This document shows positions 16,029 to 35,850 of a DNA stretch of 64,000 bases, piece by piece. A program made the position numbers and the translations under genes. The DNA is taken from positions 1-64,000 of the forward strand of contig CALVZS010000010.1 in the NCBI GenBank assembly GCA_944372575.1, read 5' to 3'. Below the pieces are notes generated by a model, which saw nothing but the letters and a program-made list of their open reading frames with translations, searched no databases and was not told the origin of the DNA. Origin of the DNA: an uncultured Clostridia bacterium (GTDB lineage Bacteria > Bacillota > Clostridia > Christensenellales > Borkfalkiaceae). Positions within the stretch are counted from its first letter, which is position 1; each line of letters starts with the position of its first letter.

Positions 16029-16562
16029 ATGGAATTTCACGGAACGACCATCTGCGCCGTCAAACGCGGCGGCGTCACCGCCATTGCGGGCGACGGACAG
16101 GTCACGATGGGCGAATCGGTCATCTTCAAGAATACTGCGATCAAGGTGCGCCGCATCTACGGCGGCAAGGTCATTTTGGGATTCGCGGGTTCGGTGACGG
16201 ACGCCTTTGCGCTCTCTGAGCGCTTCGAGGGGATGCTCAACAAGTTTGCGGGCAACCTGATGCGCTCCGCGGTGGAGCTGGCGGAGCTGTGGCGCAGCGA
16301 CAAGCTGGGCAGGCAGCTCAACGCCATGATGATCACCGCCGACAAGGATACGCTGCTCATCCTCTCGGGTACGGGCGAGGTCATCGAGCCGGACGAGGGC
16401 ATCTGCGCCATCGGTTCGGGCGGCAACTACGCCCTGGCGGCGGCGCGGGCGCTCGCGCAGAACACCGACTTCTCTGCGGAGGAGATCGCAAAAAAGTCCC
16501 TGAAGATCGCTTCGGAGATCTGCGTGTTCACCAACGACCATATCATTTGCGAAACGGTGTGA
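16029..16562 (+). CDS. hslV: ATP-dependent protease subunit HslV (ClpQ)
   Basis: The 177-residue product aligns with Firmicutes ClpQ: a short propeptide MEFHG precedes the catalytic Thr6 in GTTICAV, followed by [30 protein letters not shown] and [23 protein letters not shown]. HslV forms the two-ring peptidase core that HslU feeds with unfolded protein. AGGAGG precedes the ATG at 16029. Unlike most genomes, hslU does not follow at once: about 600 bases of hairpin-rich sequence lie between. Confidence 0.96.
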
Positions 16563-17159
16563 CGTACTCGGAGATTTTCTTCCGAACTGACGGAAGAAAA
16601 TCTTCCGAATGGAAGAGAAAACCTGCGGGTACGCCGCAAGCGGCTGACCGCCTGTTTGTCTCAACCGCGCCAATGAAAAGCGCGGTTTCGGTCACGAAAT
16701 TGCCTCTGAAATGGCAATTTCTTAGTTCGCGCATACCCCGAAGCCCCGCAGGGGCTGTCGGCATAACGTACGCGCTCACCTCTCGGCGGCGATATGTTGT
16801 AACAGTCATGGCATCGCCGTCTTCACTCATTCCGCAAGAGCGCAGATATGCGCAAATGCGGGGCGCTGGCGCAAAATGCGATTTTGCTTGCGTCATAATG
16901 ATAGCAAAAGCAATTTCTGTGTCCTTGCTAAAATAACGTGGCAAAAGGCGTCACTGCGTTATGCCTTTTGCGCCCCTGTTTGCCGCTCACACGGCTTATG
17001 CAGAAAGGTGAGCCGCCGCGGGCTAAGCTGTTGCGAAAACAGCGGCGGCGAGGAAAACCGATTGCCGGGCGCAGCCGTGCAATGGGTTTTCCTTAAAATC
17101 ACGAGATTTCTTTTTGTCAGTTCAAAAAGAAATCTGTGAACTTATTCGGGAGGTTTTTT
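16563..17159. repeat. Chain of about ten hairpins between hslV and hslU; no convincing gene
   Basis: Successive inverted repeats fill this spacer: 16572-16584/16591-16603 (13 bp, 6-base loop); 16663-16670/16680-16687; 16696-16704/16713-16721 (9 bp); 16738-16747/16751-16761; 16787-16793/16813-16819; 16832-16836/16857-16861; 16871-16877/16881-16887; 16941-16949/16973-16981; 17012-17019/17042-17049 with an inner GCTGTT/AACAGC; 17051-17065/17079-17093 (14 of 15); 17104-17116/17123-17135 (13 bp). Open frames of up to about 130 codons exist on either strand but lack SD sites and family features, and they arise from the palindromic structure. It could be a palindromic dispersed element or a structured RNA. 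Confidence 0.7.
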
Positions 17160-18470
17160 ATGGATTTATCACCCAAACAGATCGTAGCAGAACTCAATAA
17201 GCACATCATCGGGCAGGATGAGGCGAAGAAGGCGGTCGCCATCGCCCTGCGCAACCGTTACCGCCGCGCGCAGCTCTCCAAGGAGGTGCGCGACGAGATC
17301 ACGCCCAAGAACATCATCATGAAGGGGCCTACGGGCGTGGGCAAGACGGAGATCGCCCGCCGCCTGGCAAAGCTGGTCAAGGCGCCCTTCATCAAGGTGG
17401 AGGCGACAAAATATACCGAAGTCGGCTATGTCGGCAAGGACGTCGAGGGCATGGTGCGCGATTTGGTGGAGTGCGCCGTCCGCCTTGTCAAGGACGAAAA
17501 GACGGCGGAGGTCAACGCCAAGGCGACCGAGGCCGCCGAAAAGAAGATGGTCAAGATCCTTGCCGAGGCCAAGAAGAACGACCGCGGCGAGACGGCGCGC
17601 GAGGTGTTCGAGCAGAACCTTCTCGATTCGCTCCGAAAGGGGACGTTCGATAAGGTGGTCATCGAGACGGAAGTCAGGGACGAGCCGAAGAGCATGGAGC
17701 TTGTTCCGGGCGGTGCTGCCATCAACCTCGGCTCCATTCTCGGCGATGCGTTCTCGCAGAGGAAGAAAAAGCGCAAGCTGACTGTGTCGGAGGCGATGAA
17801 GATCTTTATTGCCGAGGAGGCGGACAAGCTCATCGACGACGATGCCGTGACGGAGGAGGCGCTCCGTCGTGCCGAGAACGACGGCATCATTTTCATCGAC
17901 GAGATCGACAAGATCGCCGCCAAGGGCAATACGGGCGGGGCGGACGTCTCGCGCGAGGGCGTCCAGCGCGACATCCTGCCCATTGTCGAGGGCAGCACCG
18001 TCATGACCAAGTATGGCGCGGTCAAGACGGACTATATGCTCTTCATCGCGGCGGGCGCCTTCCACGTTGCCCGCGTCGAGGATCTCATCCCTGAGCTGCA
18101 GGGGCGCTTCCCCGTGTCCGTGGAGCTCTCCAGCCTCACCAAGGAGGATTTCGTCAATATCCTCACCAACACCGAGCACTCCATCACGCAGCAGTATGCC
18201 ATGCTGCTGGCGGTGGACAACGTCGATCTCAAGTTCACGCCCGACGCCATCGAGGCGATCGCGGAGATCTCCGAGGAGATCAACCTGACCAGCGAGGACA
18301 TCGGCGCGCGCCGTCTGCACACCGTCATGGAATTTCTGCTGGAGGACATCTCCTTCAACGCGGGCGGCGGCAACTATCCCGTTGTCACGGTGGAGATCGA
18401 CAGGAAGTATGTGGAAGAACACCTTGCCAAGATCACCAAGGACAGGGATCTGAAGAAGTATGTGCTGTAA
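17160..18470 (+). CDS. hslU: HslU (ClpY) AAA+ ATPase, unfoldase for HslV
   Basis: The 436-residue product has MDLSPKQIVAELNKHIIGQD, Walker A GPTGVGKT (56-63), TKYTEVGYVGKDVEGMVRDL, an intermediate domain, Walker B GIIFIDEIDKIA and the sensor region GRFPVSVEL, ending near the HslV-contacting C-terminus. The ATG at 17160 was preferred over an in-frame GTG at 17136 because GGGAGG lies 6 bases upstream and the protein then begins like other HslU proteins. A perfect 13-bp hairpin ends 12 bases before that SD. Confidence 0.96.
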   Translation: MDLSPKQIVAELNKHIIGQDEAKKAVAIALRNRYRRAQLSKEVRDEITPKNIIMKGPTGVGKTEIARRLAKLVKAPFIKVEATKYTEVGYVGKDVEGMVRDLVECAVRLVKDEKTAEVNAKATEAAEKKMVKILAEAKKNDRGETAREVFEQNLLDSLRKGTFDKVVIETEVRDEPKSMELVPGGAAINLGSILGDAFSQRKKKRKLTVSEAMKIFIAEEADKLIDDDAVTEEALRRAENDGIIFIDEIDKIAAKGNTGGADVSREGVQRDILPIVEGSTVMTKYGAVKTDYMLFIAAGAFHVARVEDLIPELQGRFPVSVELSSLTKEDFVNILTNTEHSITQQYAMLLAVDNVDLKFTPDAIEAIAEISEEINLTSEDIGARRLHTVMEFLLEDISFNAGGGNYPVVTVEIDRKYVEEHLAKITKDRDLKKYVL

Positions 18471-18506
18471 GAGGTTCGTACCAATGATGTACAGAAGGGG
18501 AAACGT

Positions 18507-25903: not shown

Positions 25904-25918
25904 ACAGACAATCGAATA

Positions 25919-26030
25919 TTCTTTGGGGCGGAGTGAAAGTCTCCACCGGCAGTAAAGTCTGCGAAGGGCGCAAGCCCCCGAACGGGTGCAATTCCCGTAC
26001 CGACGGTCAAAGTCCGGATGAGAAAAGAAA
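25919..26030 (+). promoter_or_regulatory. FMN riboswitch (RFN element)
   Basis: The conserved RFN segments are present in order: GGGGCGGAGTGAAAGTCTCC, ACCGGCAGTAAAGTCTGCGA, then ACCGACGGTCAAAGTCCGGA and GATGAGAAAAGAA, closed by the P1 stem TTCTTT (25919-25924) with AAAGAA (26024-26029). It precedes a terminator and a RibU-like riboflavin transporter gene, so FMN binding should switch off transporter expression. Confidence 0.95.
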
Positions 26031-26044
26031 CAAAGCGGCATTGT

Positions 26045-35676: not shown

Positions 35677-35850
35677 ACAAAAAGAATATCCGGTAGGTAA
35701 GGCTACTACGGGGATACGGGCTGTTGCCGCAAAACGATGGAGACATCGTGCGCAGGTTTGAACAGGCTGCGTCGAAAGACAAGGTGCAGCATAACACAGC
35801 TTCATTGCCCCGCGAAGTCAAAGCTCGAACGGTGGACTCTTTGCGGACAG
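35677..35850 (+). promoter_or_regulatory. M-box (ykoK) magnesium riboswitch
   Basis: Conserved M-box segments appear in order: GGTAGGTAAGGCTACTACGG and GGATACGGGCTGTTGCCG (35692-35731), the internal AACAGGCTGCGTCG and GGTGCAGC arms, and the 3' GTCAAAGCTCGAA. The downstream gene is an Mg2+-transporting P-type ATPase, the classic M-box target. High Mg2+ should favour the terminator that follows at 35861. Confidence 0.92.

Follow-up and report, generated by a model that had tools for sequence, protein, structure and literature searches.

Bacterial MITEs and composite repeats such as BOX, Correia, and ERIC are dispersed, non-coding sequences with inverted terminal repeats that come in modular variants and insert between genes. 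REPINs, or BIMEs, are composed of short, non-coding, extragenic palindromic units and are moved by RAYT transposases (PMC3116915). They occur as singlets, inverted doublets, and tandem clusters in highly variable copy number, and are predicted to form hairpins in single-stranded DNA (PMC3116915). Integron attC sites, of which each cassette has one, combine a conserved structure with poor sequence conservation and are recognized as folded single strands (PMC2727003), and mobile double-hairpin elements are found in the intergenic DNA of mitochondria (PMC5910586).

The element described here, a previously uncatalogued repeat that we class as a variant of non-autonomous bacterial mobile DNA, resembles each of these systems in part. 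It is short, non-coding, and multi-copy and has inverted terminal repeats, as MITEs do; in contrast to MITEs, BOX, Correia, and ERIC, each of its terminal repeats is itself a hairpin whose arms change freely. It shares with REPINs all of the arrangements and the predicted hairpins listed above, including a palindromic unit outside genes that is present in many copies and can form inverted pairs, but this unit is several times larger and consists of five to six ordered hairpins. Because the unit sequence is not conserved within a genome (32 arm sequences in 104 copies) and a gene for a RAYT-type Y1 transposase is missing from most carriers (PF01797 search), we set the element apart from REPINs. 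Like attC sites, it has a conserved structure, poor sequence conservation, and, as we propose, recognition as a folded single strand, although a cassette carries one site whereas the element is a whole series of hairpins. It differs from the mitochondrial elements in its location on a bacterial chromosome, its five or more ordered hairpins, and its conserved loops. Overall, we consider it probable that the locus studied here carries one copy of a non-autonomous mobile element that is dispersed, recognized as folded single-stranded DNA, and REPIN-like in habit.

The hslV-hslU spacer

In the window (the whole 64,000-nucleotide stretch that was analysed), hslV (16029-16562) and hslU (17160-18470), both assigned by NCBIfam equivalog models, are separated by 597 bp (16563-17159). 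The original prediction was that hairpins fill this spacer, and the inverted repeats it described are indeed present: 13 of 13 bp pair at 16572-16603 and again at 17104-17135, 17 of 20 pair at 17051-17093, and a 9-bp pair at 16696-16721 was read directly from the sequence. The computed fold has an energy of -263 kcal/mol (z = -10.2); dinucleotide shuffles give -199 +/- 6, and none of them (0 of 100) was as good. The hairpins had been thought to differ from one another; this does not apply to the first and the last, which represent the same terminal hairpin in opposite orientations (loop AACTGA in one, TCAGTT in the other).

The spacer comprises two half-elements arranged tail to tail and a second, nested hairpin element (Table 1). 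Covariance model R1, which was built without the window, finds both halves, at 17012-17139 on the minus strand (125 bits) and at 16568-16687 on the plus strand (68 bits). The variant base of the left terminal hairpin, TCGG/CCGA, is also seen in another copy in the same genome (G000 C8) and in the sister genus g10.

Table 1. Parts of the element copy between hslV and hslU (window coordinates)
Feature	Position	Strand	Description and evidence
H1, left half (terminal hairpin)	16568..16608	+	Arms AGATTTTCTTCCG/CGGAAGAAAATCT, loop AACTGA, variant base TCGG/(T)CCGA; sequence and CM R1 match 16568-16687
H2, left half	16613..16662	+	3' end broken by nested element B; aligned to intact H2 copies
Nested element B	16663..16779	-	At least three hairpins: 16663-16687, 16696-16721, 16739-16761
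CTC flanks of nested element B	16660-16662 and 16780-16782		3-bp repeat
H3, left half	16785..16821	+	Loop degenerated from GCAACA..TAGC, then TTCACTCATTCC strand; alignment
H4, left half	16840..16853	+	Sequence and alignment
H5, left half (GGCGC..GCGTC type)	16862..16895	+	Sequence; matches to G000 C8, C7, C21
H6, right half (CAAAAGGCATAACGCAGTGACGCCTTTTG type)	16940..16973	-	Sequence; 90% match to G000 C3
H4, right half	16982..16995	-	Sequence
Pyrimidine strand TCACCTTTCT	17002..17011	-	Candidate third strand over H2 purine strand; register test, 51 copies
H3, right half, loop GCAACA	17012..17049	-	CM R1 match 17012-17139
H2, right half (AAGGAAAACCC...GGTTTTCCTC)	17050..17094	-	CM R1
H1, right half: TCAC AGATTTCTTTTTG AACTGA CAAAAAGAAATCT C GTGA	17099..17139	-	Exact match to H1 pattern

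Across the genus (30 hslV loci), the gap between hslV and hslU is 2-20 bp in many species and contains unrelated or different insertions in others, which shows that the gap in the window is an insertion. The closest relative by HslV (G014, 98% identical) has a 118-bp gap that lacks the element. A regulator specific to hslVU was rejected on the grounds that relatives mostly show short gaps or unrelated insertions here, and the suggestion that the spacer sets HslV:HslU stoichiometry found no support for the same reason and because the element adjoins very many other genes. If the element affects hslVU at all, it probably does so incidentally, as an extra structured leader before hslU.

Anatomy of the unit

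The unit is a half-element of about 200 nt that starts with the terminal hairpin H1, followed by H2, H3, H4, H5, and often H6. H1 is laid out as TTCAC, an arm of 12-13 nt, the loop AACTGA, the complementary arm, a bulged C, and GTGA. H2 has a purine-rich 5' strand (AGGAAAACC, AGAAAAACC, AGAGAAACC, and GAGAGACAACC types) and an inner covarying stem; H3, with the loop GCAACA..TAGC, is followed by a TCAC-pyrimidine strand and then by H4. Units are found singly, in tandem, or tail to tail with an inverted H1 at both ends. Most copies are one-ended, and a direct, decayed H1 often trails the unit. A miniature two-ended copy of about 155 bp (L134 609-763, genome G058) consists of H1, H3, and an inverted H1, without H2 and H4-H6.

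At hslV-hslU in two species (G017 and G224), H1 stands alone, which is most simply explained by a deletion between the two arms, given that in a two-ended copy these occur as direct repeats. Rare hybrid H1s combine arms of two alleles on either side of an intact AACTGA (G058 C1 and C103, G016 C9). Both these remnants and the hybrids, together with the direct H1s behind units and a core (A[AG]CTGA) that stays constant while the arms vary, would also be expected of a recombination-site-like system, in which H1, with its 12-13-bp arms and conserved asymmetric 6-bp core, is a site where units are joined or lost in the manner of integron cassettes. Yet H1-only sites are rare, at about one per genome, and the arms lack the usual attC core motifs, which makes this explanation very improbable.

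Dispersal and phyletic distribution

The element is a dispersed, modular, non-coding component of genomes of Candidatus Gallimonas (chicken-gut Clostridia). A search of the spacer against its own genome and relatives, the check that had been suggested, returned multiple copies, as expected for a dispersed element, and it is this option of the original prediction, a multi-hairpin dispersed element, that proved right. The spacer's own genome (G000) contains about 12 additional loci that match it in part, over module-sized stretches, and the covariance model has 16 matches there; spacer matches were detected in 22 of the 61 genomes of the genus. The number of copies varies greatly between species: the H1 pattern was counted 52 times in G058, 46 in G017, 36 in G224, 19 in G012, and 8 in G000 but not at all in most of the genus (a control pattern gave 0 or 1 per genome). 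Copies at unrelated loci of the same genome are up to 94-95% identical, but their median identity is near 77%; thus, spread has been both recent and old.

When about 85,000 named genomes were searched, the pattern for one common H1 class was found in 86 stretches; apart from a single MAG labelled Ruminococcus, the sources are Gallimonas or unnamed Clostridia MAGs. The common H1 arm pattern had no match in 2.9 million viral contigs, and carriage by phages was rejected on this basis. At the family level, the covariance model has matches in 22 of 151 genomes and 3 of 18 genera, the sister genera being g10 and g8. Many g10 genomes have at least 14-22 scored matches among the best 22 candidates per genome, and model matches indicate copies in g8 too. 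The core of H1 in g10 is AGCTGA, and 22 of the 28 distinct arm pairs examined there are perfect; the AACTGA form of the H1 pattern found nothing in this genus. Rfam has no gathering-level match in the spacer, and a permissive scan gave only sub-threshold hairpin matches. Most bacterial repeat families are recognized by sequence, whereas this element is traced across genera best by its fold; consequently, surveys of repeats based on sequence would miss much.

Conservation of the fold

RNAalifold, unaided, recovered H1, H2, and H4 from 74 copies, and 23 of the 30 pairs show compensatory changes. In the named structure (51 copies, 43 pairs), which was drawn on the very alignment that it is scored on, 93.5% of cells are paired and 29 pairs have two-sided changes. 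The stems of these copies show 422 two-sided changes versus 6 one-sided changes, although the copies are related and these are not counts of independent events. Their covariation score is 0.483, versus 0.180 when shuffled and at most 0.154 with partners slid. The fold is thus kept while paired bases are exchanged freely.

Compensatory changes had been proposed as a sign of an RNA. Covariation is overwhelming, but RNA under selection normally tolerates G-U far more than A-C, and the stems do not follow this rule: the H1 pairs of 104 copies comprise 1304 Watson-Crick, 7 G-T, 8 A-C, and 9 other pairs, and H1-H3 together have 3 G-T versus 17 A-C. Because G-T is scarce and no commoner than A-C, we read the pairing as a property of DNA. 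To judge from the aligned copies, it looks to be kept at the DNA level, as palindromes, and not as an RNA gene; of the features of Rfam-type RNA genes, the element has stem covariation but neither an excess of G-U over A-C nor a counterpart among described families. Conceivably, the copies began as a structured non-coding RNA, or a cis-acting mRNA 3' or 5' element, that spread around the genome with its RNA fold selected, for example, for 3'-end protection or operon tuning. The strand-specific conserved loops, the irregularities, and the register-specific parallel third strand described below do resemble those of ornate RNAs. However, with G-U intermediates nearly absent, no family in Rfam, and a copy number that ranges from 0 to over 50 within a genus, we find the RNA option unsupported and an improbable explanation.

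Perfect stems can also be made and kept by template switching, a documented process (PMC8794818). It would leave the same dearth of one-sided changes, but it should erase irregularities. The bulged C of H1 is invariant (51 of 51 copies), 46 of 51 retain a C.C or C.T mismatch in H2, and no loop varies among the aligned copies, although these were picked in part by their loops. Because these unpaired features persist, we favor selection on the folded strand, perhaps aided by template switching. The contrary possibility is an ordinary inverted-repeat MITE that a DDE transposase moves in double-stranded form and whose arms are corrected by template switching at the fork, the fold having no function. 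In two-ended copies such as that in the window, the H1s are terminal inverted repeats, and the strong excess of two-sided changes is what templated change of both arms predicts. Then again, the persistent bulge and mismatch are hard to reconcile with such correction, the terminal arms, which a transposase would be expected to bind by sequence, are the variable part of the element (32 alleles), and most copies have only one end; we therefore regard this explanation as unlikely, if less so than an RNA. With hundreds of copies, compensatory change, and few G-T pairs, the element provides a data set to separate selection on folded DNA from palindrome repair by template switching.

A candidate triple helix

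The pyrimidine strand that follows H3 shows parallel complementarity to the H2 purine strand, with combinations such as GGAAA/CCTTT, GAAAA/CTTTT, GAGAA/CTCTT, and GAGACA/CTCTTT. Across 51 copies, the C.G/T.A rule holds in 238 of 306 in-register cells; random reassignment of strands between copies gives 197 +/- 6, with a maximum of 218 in 5000, a comparison that ignores the kinship of the copies. No parallel or antiparallel shift beats the in-register agreement. Copies from the sister genus, which lie outside the set that gave rise to the idea, mostly agree (GGGG/CCCC, GAGA/CTCT, GG/CC), the exceptions being some copies with one C fewer and one without the pyrimidine strand. This geometry, with the third strand parallel to the purine strand and H3 as the linker, would be that of a pyrimidine-motif triple helix, and we offer it as a lead. 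It is conceivable, if doubtful, that the element represents a new class, which would move as a defined single-stranded DNA fold that includes a parallel pyrimidine-purine-pyrimidine triplex of the post-H3 strand with the H2 stem, would be recognized by shape with its arms free to diverge, and would be moved by a novel enzyme family. If so, divergence of the arms would also shield dozens of copies from homologous recombination.

Insertion sites and the search for a mobilizer

Copies are located a short way behind stop codons or ahead of start codons. Among 99 distinct H1s, 59 begin 1-15 nt (mostly 4-6) past the stop codon of a gene on the same strand, and 31 have, at a distance of 4-42 nt, the start codon of a gene that is read away from the element. 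The former position, right behind a same-strand stop, would suit an RNA, but copies lie either way round with respect to genes and also form inverted pairs, which does not. Compact genomes may tolerate the element only in the few bases between genes. The gap between hslU and hisS (18471-18506 in the window) is empty in the window and in others and contains the element in three related genomes (L211, L212, and L274). When filled and empty sites were compared, the flanks diverged within a few bases, and no unambiguous target duplication was seen for this element.

For an element that is recognized as a folded single strand, we propose that an enzyme acting in trans would recognize the arms by shape and the loop A[AG]CTGA, the bulged C, and the H3 loop by sequence. 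The likeliest class of mobilizer would be one of the enzymes that act on folded single strands, and movement as a single strand would imply a structure-specific recombinase in common gut Clostridia. Several candidates were considered. Y1_Tnp (PF01797) is absent from most carriers, including G000 (96% complete), G058, G224, and G281, and mobilization by RAYT/IS200 was rejected because the presence of Y1_Tnp does not follow copy number. IS110 was rejected as well: it is absent from nearly all carriers and shows no correlation. IS91-type Y2_Tnp gave zero matches even among the controls, a result that carries no weight either way. No autonomous parent with the same ends was seen beside H1 in the loci fetched, which come from draft assemblies, and clustering of ORFs adjoining H1 returned mostly frames derived from repeats and pointed to no enzyme.

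Nested element B and other hairpin families

Element B is also found inside H2 elsewhere, with GAG on both sides, as seen in the filled/empty pair L262 versus L243, and the CTC on both sides in the window agrees with this. Such a 3-bp GAG/CTC repeat at the insertion of a nested hairpin element is a further point in favor of the DDE-transposase reading of the main element. Element B forms its own family of covarying hairpins (GGCGGCACCAAGG..GTGCCGCC, CACGAAATTGCC..GGCAATTTC, GTTCGCGCATA..), with members in the window (16663-16779), in L262 (2676-2830), and in L220 (about 270-400).

A third repeat family (CCTCCCCTGTGTAAGGGGAGGTGGC.. type) is present in L249, in L277, and in the hslV-hslU gap of G003 (L095). 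It flanks small genes whose products resemble, by eye, DUF559 endonuclease-like proteins, a possible mobilizing partner of that family. Other long hairpins with different loops (for example, TTTCGAACGATTTGTTTC-AAGGAC-, CAAAGG loop) occur in the hslV-hslU gap or other gaps of Gallimonas (L103 in G057, L077 in G039, and L153), hinting at further families of a like kind. Elsewhere in the window, an FMN riboswitch (25915-26033) and an M-box magnesium riboswitch (35682-35843) both score over the Rfam gathering thresholds.
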